Source: Candidatus Meridianibacter frigidus
GTDB lineage: Bacteria > Vulcanimicrobiota > Vulcanimicrobiia > Vulcanimicrobiales > Vulcanimicrobiaceae
NCBI GenBank assembly: GCA_003243975.1
Contig: QHBJ01000025.1
Span: 1-64,000 of the forward strand
Direction of reading: 5' to 3'
DNA: 64,000 bases
Each line of letters starts with the position of its first letter. The stretch's first letter is position 1. Positions 48,792 to 59,642 of the stretch are shown here, in pieces. A program made the translations under genes and the position numbers. Under the pieces are notes generated by a model. That model saw nothing but the letters and a program-made list of their open reading frames with translations. It was not told where the DNA came from and made no database searches.

Positions 48792-49595
48792 CTAAACGGG
48801 CTCTTCTAAGGAGATGCGTCCGAACTTTCCGTCGTTGAAATCCTTAATGTAGGATTGTGCCGCGTTGTGCATGTCAACCGTGTTTCCGCGCCGTAAAAAT
48901 CCGCGCGCGCGCGCGAAGGCGGCCAGATCGGGGACTTTGGTCCGGCCGCTCGTTCGGTCTTCCAGCCAGCGGTAAAAGCGATCGACAACGTCTTGCGGAT
49001 CGTAGCGTTCCTTGGGAATGGCACCGGTCATTGCGAGCATCCATTGCGCCTGCGGCGTCTGGATGCGAGGTACTAAGATCCCGGGCGTGTCCATGAGCTC
49101 CAGAAGGGGAGCAACGCGAAACCATTGTGTTGCGCGGGTTACTCCGGGACGGTCTTCGGTCCTGGCCGCGGAACGCCGCAGAAGCCCGTTGATGACCGTG
49201 GATTTTCCGGAATTGGGTAATCCCACCGCCATCGCGCGCTGACTGCGTTTCTTCCGTGCGGCCAACTGTGATAAATGCACGCCCACCTGCTTTACGCTGC
49301 CCGGGCTCTTCGCGTTCACTGCGACTATGTCGTGTCCGCATCCCCGCAAATGGACGAGCCACCGCATCGTGACTGCGGCATCGGCCAGGTCCTCGCGGGT
49401 CAGCACGAGCAGCCGGGGACGCTCCCCTGCGACGCGATCGAGCATCGGATTGCGGCTGGCATGTGCGAGGCGGGAGTCGATCACCTCGATAACGATGTCG
49501 ATGAGCGGCATGCGCTCCCCGATCCTGCGCATGGCGGCCGCCATGTGCCCGGGATACCACTGAATAACTTGTTCGAAGCCGAGCGCATCCTTCAT
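48792..49595 (-). CDS. rbgA: Ribosome biogenesis GTPase (RbgA/YlqF), circularly permuted
   Basis: 267 aa; ATG 49595 overlaps the lepB stop (ATGA) and leaves the family N-terminus IQWYPGHMAAAMRRI. Permuted motif order: G4-like LTREDLAD (usual NKxD is altered to TRED), then G1 VGLPNSGKSTVINGL, G2 GVTRATQW, G3 DTPGI. RbgA assembles the 50S subunit. It sits in the usual rplS-lepB-rbgA-rnhB arrangement. The altered G4 base-recognition motif is notable. Confidence 0.92.
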   Translation of the reverse strand: MKDALGFEQVIQWYPGHMAAAMRRIGERMPLIDIVIEVIDSRLAHASRNPMLDRVAGERPRLLVLTREDLADAAVTMRWLVHLRGCGHDIVAVNAKSPGSVKQVGVHLSQLAARKKRSQRAMAVGLPNSGKSTVINGLLRRSAARTEDRPGVTRATQWFRVAPLLELMDTPGILVPRIQTPQAQWMLAMTGAIPKERYDPQDVVDRFYRWLEDRTSGRTKVPDLAAFARARGFLRRGNTVDMHNAAQSYIKDFNDGKFGRISLEEPV

Positions 49596-50101
49596 AAAGC
49601 GCCGGCCAGGCGCGGCGGCCACACACCGGCGACCGCCTTCCCGACGACCTGCGCCGTTTCTACAAAGCCCCAGAAGCGGGAATCGTCACTATTGGCGCGG
49701 TTGTCGCCCAATACGTACAGGGCTCCTGGCGGCACCGCCACTTCCTTAAACGAGCGCCGGTCCGCAAATTGGACGTAGGGTTCGTGCAGCTTGACGCCGT
49801 TGATGTAGACAGTGCCGGCCCGAACCATGATGCGGTCTCCCGGGAGTCCGATGATGCGTTTGAGATAGACCGACGGCGCTGAGCGCTCGTGTTTGAATGC
49901 GACGATGTCGCCGCGTTCGAACGTGCCGAGCCGGTAGGCAACCGTATTGATCAGCACGTACTCACCGGAAGCGATGCGCGGAGCCATCGAGAGTCCCGAG
50001 ACCTGCGGCGTTCGCATGAAGAAAGCGATGCTCAGGACTCCAAGGGCCGCGATTTGCAGCGCCACGCTAGCCAGCGTTCGCCAATGGAATTGCCGAAGCA
50101 C
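49592..50101 (-). CDS. lepB: Signal peptidase I (first of tandem pair, small form)
   Basis: 169 aa. TM at about 11-29, catalytic Ser38 in VSGLSMAPR and Lys81 in YLKRIIGLPGD, then VPPGALYVLGDNRANSDDSR. It cleaves signal peptides outside the membrane. A paralogue lies 40 bases upstream on the same strand; the two differ in the central insert, so they may split substrates. Confidence 0.93.
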   Translation of the reverse strand: MLRQFHWRTLASVALQIAALGVLSIAFFMRTPQVSGLSMAPRIASGEYVLINTVAYRLGTFERGDIVAFKHERSAPSVYLKRIIGLPGDRIMVRAGTVYINGVKLHEPYVQFADRRSFKEVAVPPGALYVLGDNRANSDDSRFWGFVETAQVVGKAVAGVWPPRLAGAL

Positions 50102-50141: not shown

Positions 50142-50750
50142 CTATTGCAAGATACGCGCGCGGTTCAGGGGCCAGAACAGCACAAACGCGTGCCCGGTAA
50201 AGCGCGCCTTGTGCCCTTTCATTAGCCCAGCGACGAAGGTTCCGCTGGTTTGTGCGAATCCCCAGTAGTGCGAATCGTCGGAGTTGTTGCGGTTGTCGCC
50301 CATCATGAAATAGAAGCCTGGCGGAATTCGGTCTGGCGCCTTCCACATCGAGCGAGGCGGAATATTTGCGCTCTGCGGATCGAGCGGCGTACCGTCGACG
50401 TAGATGTCGTAGTTCTTAACGACCATCTCGTAAGCGGGCCGGTCTTTGATATAGGGTTCCTTGAGCGCAACCCCGTCGCGGATGACGGTGCCATGATGAA
50501 CGGCCAGCGTATCTCCGGGCACTCCGATCAAGCGCTTAATGAAGTCCGTTCCGCCGGAGTCCACGGGCGGTTGAAAGACGATGATGTCGTCGTGCTGCGG
50601 CGGATGGAAGCGGTACTCGAATTCGTTGACCAGCAGAACGTCGTGAACTTGGAGCGTGGGCTCCATCGAGCCCGAGGGAATGTAGAATGTGCGCACGACG
50701 AACGTGATGAGAAAGAGCGCCACCAGGCCCGCCACGATGAACGCGTCCAA
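50142..50750 (-). CDS. lepB: Signal peptidase I (second of tandem pair)
   Basis: 202 aa from TTG 50750. TM at about 5-19, catalytic Ser28 in IPSGSMEPTL and Lys72 in FIKRLIGVPGD, and PPGFYFMMGDNRNNSDDSHYWG. The frame is open for about 41 codons upstream to near CTG 50873 and encodes another hydrophobic segment (LFGLICVFALVRIALSF), so the real N-terminus may be longer with a second TM. It follows rplS. Confidence 0.9.
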   Translation of the reverse strand: MDAFIVAGLVALFLITFVVRTFYIPSGSMEPTLQVHDVLLVNEFEYRFHPPQHDDIIVFQPPVDSGGTDFIKRLIGVPGDTLAVHHGTVIRDGVALKEPYIKDRPAYEMVVKNYDIYVDGTPLDPQSANIPPRSMWKAPDRIPPGFYFMMGDNRNNSDDSHYWGFAQTSGTFVAGLMKGHKARFTGHAFVLFWPLNRARILQ

Positions 50751-54281: not shown

Positions 54282-54596
54282 TTAGGGCAGATCGATCTTG
54301 GTGATCTTGACTTCCGCGAAGCGCTGACGATGCCCGGTAAGCTTGCGCACGCGCTTCTTGGGCTTGTATTTGAAGACCAGAATCTTCTTGCCGGCATTCT
54401 GCCGGACAAGCGTGCCGGTGACTTTGGCGCCGTCTATGGGCGCTCCAACCGCGGGGTCGTTGCCGCCCCCTTTGCTTGCCAGCACGACGTGATCGAAAGT
54501 CACCTCGGAACCGGCTTCTCCCGGCAGGTCGCAGCGGATGACGTCCCCCTCGGCGACTTTGAATTGTTTGCCGCCGGATTCGATAATCGCGTACAT
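54282..54596 (-). CDS. rplU: 50S ribosomal protein L21
   Basis: 104 aa. MYAIIESGGKQFKVAEGD at the start and LVFKYKPKKRVRKLTGHRQ-like segments at the end are the family pattern (read as IIESGGKQFKV and KKRVRKLTGHRQ). It is the first gene after a strong promoter and precedes prp. Confidence 0.96.
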   Translation of the reverse strand: MYAIIESGGKQFKVAEGDVIRCDLPGEAGSEVTFDHVVLASKGGGNDPAVGAPIDGAKVTGTLVRQNAGKKILVFKYKPKKRVRKLTGHRQRFAEVKITKIDLP

Positions 54597-54649: not shown

Positions 54650-54678
54650 TTGACACCGCCCAGGTTTCCGGCTATATT
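54650..54678 (+). promoter_or_regulatory. Promoter of the ABC exporter operon
   Basis: TTGACA (54650-54655) and TATATT (54673-54678) with a 17-base spacer: near consensus. The transcription start would fall within the long palindrome that begins at the last base of the -10, so a bound repressor would block it. Confidence 0.8.
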
Positions 54679-54710
54679 GTAGATTAGTCTATAAAATAGA
54701 CTAATCTACA
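54678..54710. promoter_or_regulatory. Operator: perfect 15-bp inverted repeat
   Basis: TGTAGATTAGTCTAT (54678-54692), AAA, ATAGACTAATCTACA (54696-54710). It covers the -10 and the likely transcription start of the operon that encodes a winged-helix protein, the natural ligand. It is also able to form an RNA hairpin just before the leader ribosome binding site AAGGA (54711-54715). Confidence 0.8.
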
Positions 54711-54722
54711 AAGGACGACGCT

Positions 54723-54758
54723 ATGAAGAATTCTCTACTTTGGCTGCTGGGGACATGA
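54723..54758 (+). CDS. Leader peptide ORF, 11 codons
   Basis: ATG 54723 with AAGGA seven bases upstream; the product is MKNSLLWLLGT, hydrophobic with one Trp and four Leu. Its stop TGA overlaps the next ATG (ATGA), so it is translated just before the membrane protein and could act as an attenuator or coupling ORF. Not a shadow of another gene: nothing else encodes here. Confidence 0.6.
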   Translation: MKNSLLWLLGT

Positions 54759-55342
54759 GCGAGCCAACCATGGGGGCGCTCGAAGCCCAAGATCATCTTC
54801 AAATGGTCGACCGTATTCTGTCGCGCGCGGAAGAACCGGCCTGCTTAAACGGCGGCCCATTTATTATCTGGGGGGTCGTAGGGGCGGCAATGGACCTGGC
54901 CGTTCAAGTTGTATTCCTCCAAAAGGGACCCCCGTCACTTTTTTGGCTACCCGCGATCTTGGTCGCATGCGCGATCGTTTTTATGGTCTTCTTTGCAGCG
55001 CGCATGGCAAAACGGGGCCGTCGCGGGGTGCTCGACCGGCATATCGGCAATGTCTTTGTGATTGCGTGGATCGTCGCGCTCATCGTGATGTTGCTCGGCG
55101 CGCACATCTTTACCGAATGGGCTCAGGGTGCCGTTTGGAGCTTGATGTTTGGTTCGGCGATGCTGTTCTGCGGTTTATTGACTCGCAGCCGCATCTCGTT
55201 TACGGGCGGGGCCGCCGTCATTCTCTCGATCATCGCTGCGAACTTTGCCTACCCATATGCCGGGTATATTCTGGCCGCCGGCTTTCTTATCGGGATGAGC
55301 GGCGCCGGCGTTGCCCTGACGCTGGCGCGCGGCAATGGGTAA
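54755..55342 (+). CDS. Multi-pass membrane protein of the exporter operon
   Basis: 195 aa. Cytosolic start (EAQDHLQMVDRILSRAEEPA), then about six helices including FIIWGVVGAAMDLAVQVVF, FWLPAILVACAIVFMVFFAA, VFVIAWIVALIVMLLGAHIF and ILSIIAANFAYPYAGYILAA. No family recognised with certainty. It may be a sensor or an extra transporter subunit. It overlaps the winged-helix gene by one base. Confidence 0.7.
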   Translation: MSEPTMGALEAQDHLQMVDRILSRAEEPACLNGGPFIIWGVVGAAMDLAVQVVFLQKGPPSLFWLPAILVACAIVFMVFFAARMAKRGRRGVLDRHIGNVFVIAWIVALIVMLLGAHIFTEWAQGAVWSLMFGSAMLFCGLLTRSRISFTGGAAVILSIIAANFAYPYAGYILAAGFLIGMSGAGVALTLARGNG

Positions 55343-55620
55343 TGGACGAACTCTTGCTTTCTAAAATCCGGCTGGGTGCGATCGCGGAACTCCTGAGCTC
55401 CGAGTGGATCACCTTTCCCACGCTCGTAAGATCGCTGGGCACGACGAACGGCAATCTCGGCGCGCATCTTTTAAAGCTGGTTGACGCGGGCTACGTGAAT
55501 GAAGAGAAGACATTCGTCGACAAGCGCCCGCAAACGCGATATCGTTTGACGCGCCGGGGCCGCGAGGCGTTCAAGAAGCACGTTGGCGAGATGCAAACGC
55601 TCTTGCGCAAGGCAATTTAG
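55342..55620 (+). CDS. Winged-helix transcriptional regulator (HTH_27/MarR-like)
   Basis: 92 aa. Compact wHTH: IAELLSSEWITFPTLVRSLG, recognition helix TNGNLGAHLLKLVDAG, wing EEKTFVDKRPQTRYRLTRRG, final helix EAFKKHVGEMQTLLRKA. Small single-domain regulators of this type bind palindromes as dimers, so the 15-bp-arm operator upstream is its probable target. Negative autoregulation of the exporter is the likely mode. Confidence 0.85.
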   Translation: MDELLLSKIRLGAIAELLSSEWITFPTLVRSLGTTNGNLGAHLLKLVDAGYVNEEKTFVDKRPQTRYRLTRRGREAFKKHVGEMQTLLRKAI

Positions 55621-55625
55621 CTACC

Positions 55626-56516
55626 ATGGTTACCTTCGAAAATGTCAGCAAACAGTATGGCGACGTCGTCGCTCTGGACGATTTTAATTTGGAGATCGCC
55701 GCCGGAAGAACGCTCGCGTTGCTAGGGCCCAACGGTGCCGGCAAGACCACCGCGATATCGTTGTTGCTCGGGCTGCGCAAGCCCACCCGGGGACTGGTGC
55801 GAGTGCTGGGATACAATCCGCGCGATCTGCGCGCGCACAGCGCCATTGGGCCCATGCTGCAGAGTTCCGGCTTACCGTCATATCTGCGCGTATCGGAAGC
55901 AATCGCGTTGTTTTCCACTTATTATCCCAAGCCGTTAGCAATCGGCCGCGTTTTGGAACTGGCCGGACTGGAACATTTGGCCAAAACCCGCGTCACCTCG
56001 CTCTCGGGCGGAGAGTTGCAGCGGCTCTATTTTGCTTTGGCCATCTGCGGTGATCCGGAAATCCTGGTGTTGGATGAGCCCTCGGTAGGCTTGGATGTCG
56101 AAGCACGGCGCGGCATGCTCGAAACCATTCGCGGGATCGCCGGAGAGGGACGCACCATCGTACTGACCACGCACTACCTGGAGGAGGCCGATGCGTTGGC
56201 GGACCGCATCGTCGTCATCGACCGCGGCCACATCGTCGCCGATGGTTCGCCGGCCGCAATCAAACAAACGGTCGGGCGCAAGCGAGTCTGCTTTACATCC
56301 GGCTGGGAGGTGGACTCTGCGCTACTCGCTCGCAACGATGCTCGCGTTGATTTTCGCGACGGCAACAGCTACCGGTTGAGCTGTGCGGCGCCCGAGCGTC
56401 TGCTCGGCGAGCTATTCGCGGCCGGCGTCCAACTGGAGGATCTGACCGTAACGGGAGCATCGCTGGAAGAAGCCTTTCTACACCTTACGACGGGACACGA
56501 CTCAAATGCAGCCTAA
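55626..56516 (+). CDS. ABC transporter ATP-binding protein (exporter type)
   Basis: 296 aa. Walker A GPNGAGKTT, Q-loop LQSSG, signature LSGGELQRL, Walker B EILVLDEPSVGLD, H-loop TTHYLEEAD, then a regulatory C-terminal domain of about 80 residues (RKRVCFTSGWEVDS onward). It resembles drug/lantibiotic/heme-type ABC-2 ATPases. Works with the permease encoded next, which overlaps it by 11 bases. Confidence 0.93.
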   Translation: MVTFENVSKQYGDVVALDDFNLEIAAGRTLALLGPNGAGKTTAISLLLGLRKPTRGLVRVLGYNPRDLRAHSAIGPMLQSSGLPSYLRVSEAIALFSTYYPKPLAIGRVLELAGLEHLAKTRVTSLSGGELQRLYFALAICGDPEILVLDEPSVGLDVEARRGMLETIRGIAGEGRTIVLTTHYLEEADALADRIVVIDRGHIVADGSPAAIKQTVGRKRVCFTSGWEVDSALLARNDARVDFRDGNSYRLSCAAPERLLGELFAAGVQLEDLTVTGASLEEAFLHLTTGHDSNAA

Positions 56517-57279
56517 TTTAGCTCCGGCGCCGCCGATGTTTGCCGCGCAGGCAAAGCTCGAACTCTTGCGGCTGCTGCGCATCCCCGCCTTCAGTGTTAC
56601 GAGCTTGGCGCTGCCCATCATGTTTTACGCTTTCTTCGGCTTGCCGCAAGCGCAATTGCACTATCACAACACCACTGCCGGCCTCTATCTGCTGGCTTCG
56701 TTCAGCGCTTATGCGGTACTCACGATTTCACTCTTTACGTTTGGGGCTAGCGTAGCGGCCGAACGGGGAACGGGCGCGACTCGCTTGATGCGCGCCATGC
56801 CGCTGCGCATCTCGGCATATTTCTTCGGAAAGATTCTCAGCGCGATGGTCTTTTCCGCAATCGTCATGACGGCTCTCGTCTTGTTCGCGCGGTTTGCGGG
56901 GGGTGTCGAGTTGCCGCCGGAGCAATACGCCGAGCTCTTGGCGCGCTTGCTGCTGGGAAGCATCCCCTTCATCATCCTTGGATTTGCAGTCGGTTACCTG
57001 GCCTCGGTCAACTCGGCGATTGCGATTCTCAATCTTATAATTCTACCGCTGTCGTTTGGGTCGGGGCTCTTCATCCCGCTCTCAGCGATGCCGAAAATCG
57101 TTGCCACCTTCGCCCCATACCTGCCGACGTATCACTTTGGACAGCTGGCTTGGGGAGTGGTGGGAGCGGCCTCGGAGACGCCATTGCGTGCGGCGTTGTG
57201 GTTGGTCACTTACGCGGGCCTGTTTCTAGTGGTCGCGCTACGCGCTTACTACCGCGACGAACGCAAGGAGTTTGCTTAA
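56506..57279 (+). CDS. ABC-2 type permease
   Basis: 257 aa with six helices: FSVTSLALPIMFYAFFGLPQ, FSAYAVLTISLFTFGASVAA, MVFSAIVMTALVLFARFAGG, PFIILGFAVGYLASVN, ILNLIILPLSFGSGLFIPL and LWLVTYAGLFLVVALRAYY. The GTGATRLMRAMP loop is typical of ABC-2 proteins. Substrate unknown; antibiotic or lipid export is typical. Last gene of the operon. Confidence 0.92.
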   Translation: MQPNLAPAPPMFAAQAKLELLRLLRIPAFSVTSLALPIMFYAFFGLPQAQLHYHNTTAGLYLLASFSAYAVLTISLFTFGASVAAERGTGATRLMRAMPLRISAYFFGKILSAMVFSAIVMTALVLFARFAGGVELPPEQYAELLARLLLGSIPFIILGFAVGYLASVNSAIAILNLIILPLSFGSGLFIPLSAMPKIVATFAPYLPTYHFGQLAWGVVGAASETPLRAALWLVTYAGLFLVVALRAYYRDERKEFA

Positions 57280-57309: not shown

Positions 57310-57489
57310 ATGGACAAACGAAACGATTTGGATGACTCCAGCGCATCGCGTGCAATCTCGAATGCAATTCGCGCAGAGCAGCCCGAAGATGCTTCCCAGC
57401 CGGATGAGGCCGTATACGGCGACACGGATTTGAACCCGAATGCCGACGATCAGCGGGATGCGCATCGAGGCGAGAAGGATACCGCTTAG
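57310..57489 (+). CDS. Small acidic protein, 59 aa
   Basis: ATG 57310 with AGGGGA just upstream. The product is hydrophilic, rich in Asp, Glu, Ala, Arg and Asn (DLDDSSASRAISNAI, PDEAVYGDTDLN, DAHRGEKDTA), with no hydrophobic core, so probably disordered. It follows the permease by 30 bases and its stop overlaps the convergent acylase stop. Function unknown; codon use resembles the neighbours. Confidence 0.55.
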   Translation: MDKRNDLDDSSASRAISNAIRAEQPEDASQPDEAVYGDTDLNPNADDQRDAHRGEKDTA

Positions 57490-59642
57490 GGAGCGAGCGT
57501 GAGGCGAGTCACCGTGCGCGCCGCGACCGCGGCATCTGTGTAGGGCAACGGTACCAGCGTTCCTTTGACGTAAGTGGAGGCGAGGTCCGCGTAATGCGGT
57601 GATCCGGGTTCTCCGGACTCGCCTGCGGGAATGACAATTCCGCCCGCATCCCAGTTGCCGGCGTCCCACACGGCTCGAAAACTTTGCGAAAAATTCTTTC
57701 CCAGGACGTGAATGCTGTACGTGTCGCCGTTTCCCGGAAGCGTTGGGCCATTTAGCCAGGGAATTCCGAGACTGCTGAGCGGATTGAGCATGTGCAGCGC
57801 GCCGGCGGCGCCCCACGGTTCGGTAGCCGCGTTCGGGTCGCGCAGAAAACCGAGCGTTTTGCGCAGCAGGACACGGTCGGATGCCTCGGATGGGCGACGT
57901 GCTTCCTCGCGCGCCCCAACCAGGAGCGAAGTCGTATTCCCCGAGGGGTCATTTTCGATCGCATATAGCCGCATCGCGTATGCGATCGTCGCGGCGCGCG
58001 AATCGGGGCTCATGCGTCCGTTCCAATTTTTGAGTTCTTCCACCGCCTTCCGCTCCGTCGGTTCGAGCAGCGCGGGACGCCTACGCGCGGCTGCGACGAC
58101 GAGTTTCGCGAGTTCGAGCTCCGCAATACTGAGCGTGTCCTGTTGCATCCCTGAAAAATAGGCGGCGCTGAACTTTTGGTTTGCTTCGTGAAGCAACTGT
58201 CGGATGCGGTACGCGCGGTACGGAGGCGCAAAGGTCGGGCTTAACCGGAATGGATAGGCATCTGCATACATTTTGTTGTTGGCCGTGAACACCAAGGCGT
58301 TGCGCGATGGCGCGACGTGTGGAAGCGTGGCGAACGACAGCGGCGCAAAATCCCGATAAGGTTCGTCATGCACGCGCCTGCCCCAAAGCGGGTCGTTTGG
58401 AATCCAGCCCGCTAAAGCGTAGGCCGCGCGGCCGTCGCGCGCAGCGACAACGAAGTTCTGCGTCGGCCCCGGATAGGAGGAGAGCGCGCGAAGCGCATCT
58501 TCCATCGAGTGCGCGCGGTCCAAGCCATCGAACGCAATCAATGGAGAACGCGGATTTGTTACAGCACTCCAGGCCACGAGATAACTCCGAGCGCCACGCG
58601 TAATGTAAAAACCCCGCGCGTCGCGATAGTACGTTTGCGAAACCGGCGTGCCGAAGTGCACACCGAACGTTTCCGCGACACCCCTAGCAGGCCGAACGGC
58701 CCGAAACACACTGAGGGCCGCGACGGTCCCGTTGGTCGCTCCCCAAGCGAGCGCATCGTTGTGTCCCAGAATCACGCCTGGCGTTCCCGCGAGCGACGCG
58801 CCCGCCGCATGGTATCCAGGCGCCTTTAGATCGACAAGGTACCAAATGCCGGGAATGCTCAAATCTAAGTGCGGATCGTTTGCAAGCAGCGCGTGGCCGC
58901 CGGCCGTGAGCGCGGCGCCTGCCGTCCATGCGTTGCTTCCCAACGGCAACGGTTCGGAACCGGCCTCGCCTCTGGCACGTTGCGGCGTCGATTGTGCGGT
59001 CCGCTTTTCACCCACGAGCGGTACGTCGTACTTGGGGTCTGTAAGGGGGTATGCGGCGTCGTAGCCGTTGGGCCCGCGCAAGCGATAGACTACATCGCGT
59101 TTCAGAACGTCTTGATACGGATCCGCCAGATTAAGCACGGTAGCAAAACCAACTGCCAGCGAGTCCTGCGCACTCCACGGCTGCGGGCGCACAAAGAGAA
59201 GCCGATATTCAAACGGCAGCGGCTGTTTTTGCATGGCTGCGTTCACACCGTCGGCGAAAGCCGACAGCATCGCGCTCTGCATTGGGTTCAGCCGTTCATA
59301 CTGTCGTTGCACGACCGTCCGCACGTCAATGTTGCGCGATCGTTCATCCGAAGCAATTGCTTGCGGACCGAACCATTCTGCCAAGCGTCCGTAGACGAAG
59401 TGGCGGGTGAGATCCATCTGGAAGAGCCGATCCGAGCCCTCGGCAAAACCCTGCGCCAGGAAGAGATCGTGCTCGTTTGCGGCGCGAATGTGCGGGATGT
59501 CACGGTCGTCGCGCAAGATCTGCACCGCCGCCTGTAGCCGGGGTACCTGAATGCTCCCGCTGACTTGCGCCACCGCCGTATGAAACTCGATGAAGAGATA
59601 GAGCGCCAGAATGATCGCCGGTATAGCCAGAAGCGTGAGCAC
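57486..59642 (-). CDS. Penicillin acylase-family Ntn hydrolase
   Basis: 718 aa with an N-terminal membrane or signal helix (LTLLAIPAIILALYLFIEF). The precursor layout is kept: alpha chain, spacer, then the beta chain beginning with the nucleophile in LGSNAW after autocleavage. ILGHNDALAWGATNG and the oxyanion-type N residues further on support activity. Family members hydrolyse N-acyl groups such as penicillins, acyl-homoserine lactones or other amides. Quorum quenching or nutrient recycling are possible; not decided here. Confidence 0.9.
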   Translation of the reverse strand: MLTLLAIPAIILALYLFIEFHTAVAQVSGSIQVPRLQAAVQILRDDRDIPHIRAANEHDLFLAQGFAEGSDRLFQMDLTRHFVYGRLAEWFGPQAIASDERSRNIDVRTVVQRQYERLNPMQSAMLSAFADGVNAAMQKQPLPFEYRLLFVRPQPWSAQDSLAVGFATVLNLADPYQDVLKRDVVYRLRGPNGYDAAYPLTDPKYDVPLVGEKRTAQSTPQRARGEAGSEPLPLGSNAWTAGAALTAGGHALLANDPHLDLSIPGIWYLVDLKAPGYHAAGASLAGTPGVILGHNDALAWGATNGTVAALSVFRAVRPARGVAETFGVHFGTPVSQTYYRDARGFYITRGARSYLVAWSAVTNPRSPLIAFDGLDRAHSMEDALRALSSYPGPTQNFVVAARDGRAAYALAGWIPNDPLWGRRVHDEPYRDFAPLSFATLPHVAPSRNALVFTANNKMYADAYPFRLSPTFAPPYRAYRIRQLLHEANQKFSAAYFSGMQQDTLSIAELELAKLVVAAARRRPALLEPTERKAVEELKNWNGRMSPDSRAATIAYAMRLYAIENDPSGNTTSLLVGAREEARRPSEASDRVLLRKTLGFLRDPNAATEPWGAAGALHMLNPLSSLGIPWLNGPTLPGNGDTYSIHVLGKNFSQSFRAVWDAGNWDAGGIVIPAGESGEPGSPHYADLASTYVKGTLVPLPYTDAAVAARTVTRLTLAP

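Follow-up and report, generated by a model that had tools for sequence, protein, structure and literature searches.

We begin by asking how a compact exporter operon is switched on and off when a palindrome, a leader of only eleven codons and a membrane protein gene all stand between its promoter and its own regulator gene. The operon lies in the window, by which we mean the whole 64-kb stretch of DNA that was analysed, from a Ca. Eremiobacterota MAG (assembly 1.95 Mb, 43 contigs). When the sequence is re-read, all the elements of the original prediction are found in their places on the + strand. A sigma-70-type promoter (54650 to 54678, 11/12 consensus matches) has its TTGACA box at 54650 to 54655 and its TATATT box at 54673 to 54678 with 17 bp between them, and the ribosomal protein L21 gene rplU (54282 to 54596, - strand), the divergent neighbour in most relatives, falls outside the module. 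At the other end a penicillin amidase family gene (57486 to 59642, - strand) converges on the operon; locus L054, which lacks the ABC genes, likewise has a convergent gene of this family. Further away, two adjacent signal peptidase I-like ORFs (49592 to 50101 and 50142 to 50750, - strand) adjoin ORFs resembling rplS and trmD, all of these recognized by eye.

The first question is "what exactly is the palindrome?" The perfect inverted repeat first described is present and 100% complementary, spanning 54677 to 54711, with arms of 16 bp rather than 15 (54677 to 54692 and 54696 to 54711) around a loop of 3 nt. Each arm is in turn a 12-bp dyad of the form TAGA-N4-TCTA, dyad 1 (TAGATTAGTCTA) at 54680 to 54691 and dyad 2 (TAGACTAATCTA) at 54697 to 54708, both on the + strand and with their centres 17 bp apart; the site is therefore two tandem operators, a point that the earlier reading missed, and its consensus across loci is YAGAnTAnTCTR-N5-YAGAnTAnTCTR. 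The 64-kb window has two copies of YAGANTANTCTR, both at the operator (0.03 expected), and the double site occurs a single time in the 1.95-Mb genome. Two further single dyads in the same genome both fall within long open reading frames, and on that ground other regulon members in this genome were considered and rejected.

Does this double dyad belong to the regulator? Homologues of the helix-turn-helix (HTH) protein are found in 61 of the 99 genomes of the family, and about 6 kb was taken around 60 of them. Together with homologues from other phyla these loci give 88 upstream regions, which were scanned with YAGANTANTCTR-N5-YAGANTANTCTR at a threshold of at least 15 of 20 positions. The double dyad is present in 75 of the 88, across several phyla, as against 0.34% of dinucleotide shuffles. 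A search of the 99 family genomes allowing up to 3 mismatches finds sites in 13 genomes and none with the reversed pattern, while exact sites in the 149 Eremiobacterota genomes number 22, all at the locus of the membrane protein (MP) and the HTH protein, with 0 for the reversed control; 21 of these adjoin the HTH gene, and the remaining one, which has the flank seen at the others, is on a contig broken just past the operator. Copies of the operator are near-perfect in most Acidobacteria loci (L158-L166) and weaker in Gemmatimonadota, Planctomycetota (L176, L177, L180), Hydrogenedentes (L175) and Chloroflexota (L174, TATACTAGTTTA...), and the double dyad is absent upstream of the divergent HTH paralogues L103-L105. 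In the Alphaproteobacteria (L171, L173, L182, L184), degenerate CAAAGTACTTTR-like dyads lie upstream of HTH homologues and are possibly a variant operator.

The operator stays in place when its surroundings change. At loci that have no MP (L053, L059, L068, L076, L086) it stands directly before the HTH gene, and it is kept at loci without rplU as neighbour (L047, L048, L074, L080, L186 and the Acidobacteria), for which reason an rplU-linked element was rejected. Because the double dyad is conserved at HTH homologues, and persists at loci lacking MP and at loci not next to rplU, we strongly infer that the HTH protein represses its own operon; binding of the protein to the double dyad is likewise strongly indicated, and this part of the original prediction, self-regulation through the palindrome, gains strong support from comparative genomics (75/88 upstream regions, 22/22 exact sites). 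The constant core of the module is the operator and the HTH gene. Of the five elements first described as one arrangement, this core, usually with MP, is what relatives keep, and the leader and the ABC genes prove optional. As to the sign of the control, 48 of the 75 operator loci have TTGAC 27-33 nt ahead of dyad 1, with the -10 box abutting dyad 1, and in the remaining operator loci the operator overlaps the -10 box in another register. Such a position fits a repressor site, and it is from position only that we would favour repression over activation.

We turn our attention to the regulator itself (92 aa, 55342 to 55620, + strand). It scores 77.8 bits against HTH_34 (PF13601, Pfam cut-off 27) and so belongs to this family, and its score against PadR (PF03551) is 22.1 bits, under the Pfam cut-off of 27. 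The structural model (pLDDT 93.5) contains a winged helix-turn-helix (wHTH) and one C-terminal helix only, and it matches PH1061 (1UB9, TM 0.89), the closest solved structure, and the PadR protein Rv3488. A trace of the protein-DNA contact may be visible in the sequences, where base 20 of the operator varies together with the residue that follows GNL in the recognition helix: Gly goes with G in 53 of 53 cases, and Ser or Ala goes with A in 14 of 22 (Fisher p 6e-10, a value that overstates the case because the sequences are related). The correlation follows clades and breaks in the Acidobacteria and Gemmatimonadota, where Ser goes with G at 8 loci. A second HTH_34 gene in the same genome (L200, G000:C22 around 77009) is preceded by a different apparent membrane-protein ORF (MTELERALGDIAEVRDRL...), which suggests that pairs of a membrane protein and an HTH_34 protein are a wider theme.

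The next question is "what does the membrane protein do?" MP (195 aa, 54755 to 55342, + strand) is modelled by AlphaFold2 with a pLDDT of 90 as one short N-terminal helix (residues 8-25) and six long helices, and its gene overlaps the regulator gene as TAATG. Assignment to a known family was tried and rejected: 31 members give no convincing match in Pfam or NCBIfam, and the protein has no sequence relative in the PDB and no significant fold match (Foldseek best E 1.1). An MP match occurs in 58 of the 149 genomes of the phylum, and in 58 of 58 it adjoins an HTH homologue; a homologous MP is also directly upstream of the HTH gene in Acidobacteria and Gemmatimonadota, and the gene that precedes the HTH gene in Planctomycetota and Chloroflexota is similar in size to MP but gives no match to the MP profile. 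Some genomes have lost MP, which is therefore dispensable in certain cases. Since MP is always beside the HTH gene, and the exporter is variable or absent, a role as the regulator's sensor is more likely for MP than one as a subunit of the pump, and the pair is best read as sensor and repressor. The suggestion first made, that MP acts as a sensor, is plausible on the same evidence, namely that the pairing of MP with the HTH gene is much more regular than its association with any exporter.

How variable is the exporter? In the window the genes for an ABC ATPase (ABC_tran, 296 aa, 55626 to 56516, nearest DrrA/NodI) and an ABC-2 type permease (ABC2_membrane, 257 aa, 56506 to 57279), both on the + strand and overlapping by 11 bp, together make up an ABC-2 exporter, from which an export function of the operon may be inferred; the ATPase scores 186.9 bits against DrrA (TIGR01188), below the NCBIfam cut-off of 312.45. 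A survey of the ABC ATPase at 61 loci, the window included, gives the window's type at 10 and a more distant type at 21, with no exporter found just downstream at 27 of the 61 and 3 of the 61 cut off. Elsewhere the exporters beside the MP-HTH pair are of ABC-2 type A or B, and one Acidobacteria locus (L160) has an HlyD adaptor with an ABC ATPase and an FtsX/MacB permease; the exporter is an exchangeable part. Genus g12 has a BAAT_C-type hydrolase gene between the HTH and ABC genes (a Pfam match in L095, a similar sequence in L093).

It is against this background that the most serious alternative has to be weighed, in which the HTH protein senses the exported compound itself, in the manner of MarR or PadR, and MP either belongs to the exporter as an accessory subunit or is simply an unrelated membrane protein. 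The model of the HTH protein does resemble PadR- and MarR-family structures, some of which bind ligands directly, yet it consists of nothing other than the wHTH and a single C-terminal helix; and while in the window MP forms a single operon with the ABC genes, neighbouring genes overlapping or abutting, many genomes have the MP-HTH pair with no exporter genes found downstream, exporters of unrelated types take their place elsewhere, and it is the HTH gene that MP tracks. We consider direct sensing by the HTH protein unlikely.

The reading that we prefer, with a probability of roughly 0.7, is an autorepressed operon with the HTH protein on the double dyad, MP as the sensor, the exporter as the output and a leader that does not work as an attenuator. 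The 92-aa HTH_34 protein, probably as a pair of dimers, would occupy the double dyad that immediately follows the -10 box and block RNA polymerase. MP would sense a signal at the membrane or envelope and then either remove the repressor from the DNA or alter its activity, both of these steps being suggested by the obligate pairing. Derepression would raise MP, the HTH protein and, in this genome, the DrrAB-like ABC-2 exporter, which may relieve the stress. The 11-codon ORF would fill the slot of the first start codon after the operator, and ribosomes that end it could restart at the overlapping ATG of MP.

This leader ORF (MKNSLLWLLGT*, 54723 to 54758, + strand) has the ribosome binding site AAAGGA, read from the sequence at 54710 to 54715 on the + strand, before its start at 54723, and its TGA overlaps the ATG of MP at 54755 (ATGA). 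In 35 homologous loci there is no extra ORF: MP begins no more than about 25 nt from the operator and in most cases has an RBS of its own. In six further loci MP is lost or trimmed. Another ORF occupies the slot between operator and MP in 15 loci including the window, and in the 14 others it is a longer, small membrane ORF of 31-66 aa, with an uncertain start in about four loci: the form in L046 has 31 aa (with a GTGA overlap), that in L049 has 37 aa, and those of several genera have 36-66 aa. A small membrane ORF is seen between operator and MP in L057, L058, L064, L066, L067, L073, L077 and L091, and in several of these loci it resembles a copy of the hairpin with which MP begins. Because several of the 61-66-aa forms resemble the first transmembrane hairpin of MP (BLASTP down to 9e-8; E 3e-5 against the MP profile, in a small search space), several slot ORFs look like partial duplications of that hairpin. 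The window's leader, the shortest occupant of this optional slot, has no detectable homology, and we read it as a shortened, mostly unconserved extra.

Could so short a leader still regulate? The original prediction offered attenuation or translational coupling, and the two fare differently. An attenuator peptide acting by ribosome stalling would suit the eleven Leu/Trp-rich codons, the good RBS and the ATGA overlap; it would be expected to show a conserved leader with a terminator or antiterminator, whereas this leader is unconserved, its slot is without an ORF in 35 homologous loci and holds longer ones in 14, and neither an intrinsic terminator nor an Rfam match is found in or near the leader region, on which grounds an attenuator or riboswitch was rejected as highly improbable. 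The fold of the 5' region of the RNA is mildly more stable than that of shuffles (z -2.2), and part of this comes from what remains of the operator hairpin. Translational coupling from the leader to MP is plausible: MP has no good RBS in front of it other than the one used by the leader start, and relatives with the extra ORF repeatedly show stop/start overlaps.

Scarcely credible is the idea that the palindrome belongs to rplU or works as RNA (a terminator or leader hairpin) instead of as the DNA operator of the HTH protein, for although most loci have rplU as their divergent neighbour and the transcribed part can fold into a 9-bp stem, the site stays with the HTH gene where rplU is absent, no T-run follows the palindrome, the expected transcription start is inside dyad 1, so that the mRNA would lack the full hairpin, and in some loci the units are direct rather than inverted. 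One such locus is L077, where TAGAGTAGTCTA occurs twice as direct repeats; arm-to-arm symmetry is therefore not the conserved trait, and what is conserved is the pair of dyads, not a hairpin. Conservation of an RNA hairpin was also rejected from the arm symmetry at free positions (27 and 38 of 73), which is only slightly above a base-composition expectation estimated from column counts.

We now compare the operon of our preferred reading, repressed by the HTH protein and sensed through MP, with known systems. Autorepressed efflux operons of the MarR/PadR kind have a small wHTH protein, a palindromic operator in the -10/start region and an exporter downstream. The operon in the window has all three; unlike them, it has a dedicated membrane protein gene before the regulator, and its operator consists of two tandem dyads. 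The exporter is like the DrrAB-type ABC-2 drug exporters in having an ATPase closest to DrrA/NodI and an ABC2_membrane permease, but the window proteins score below the curated drrA and drrB cut-offs. The regulator shares its family and fold with 1UB9 (PH1061 of Pyrococcus horikoshii). The open-licence literature, a scope that leaves most subscription journals outside, yielded no operator or partner for HTH_34, PF13601 or PH1061, and nothing on this operator (the TAGACTA motif included) or on the MP-HTH pair.

The closest parallel in layout is the HAAS-PadR-like wHTH dyad, in which a membrane protein gene and a standalone small wHTH gene form a proposed alternative to two-component systems, with various multi-TM proteins as partners, 6TM and FtsX/MacB types among them (PMC11237479). 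Here too a TM protein gene lies beside a standalone wHTH gene (in all 58 MP genomes), but the module fails both the HAAS and the PadR domain tests: the wHTH protein is of HTH_34 type and under the PadR cut-off, the 31 MP members have no DUF1700, DUF1129 or DUF1048 match in Pfam at E<=0.1, and, in place of the three helices and GxP motif of HAAS, the MP model has one short N-terminal helix. A conserved operator is present here, whereas none is described in the consulted passages on the HAAS-PadR dyad (PMC11237479). We tentatively propose, at somewhat short of even odds, a signalling module not found in the literature searched, made of a six-helix sensor unclassified in Pfam, a dedicated HTH_34 repressor, a double-dyad operator present in several phyla, and interchangeable outputs (ABC-2, MacB-like or none nearby). 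With this operon, HTH_34 regulators gain a candidate operator sequence, and phyla that have seen hardly any genetics gain a defined pair of membrane sensor and repressor that can be put to the test. If MP does release the repressor, the pair would be a further membrane-protein and wHTH dyad built, from unrelated parts, in the manner of those proposed as an alternative to two-component systems.
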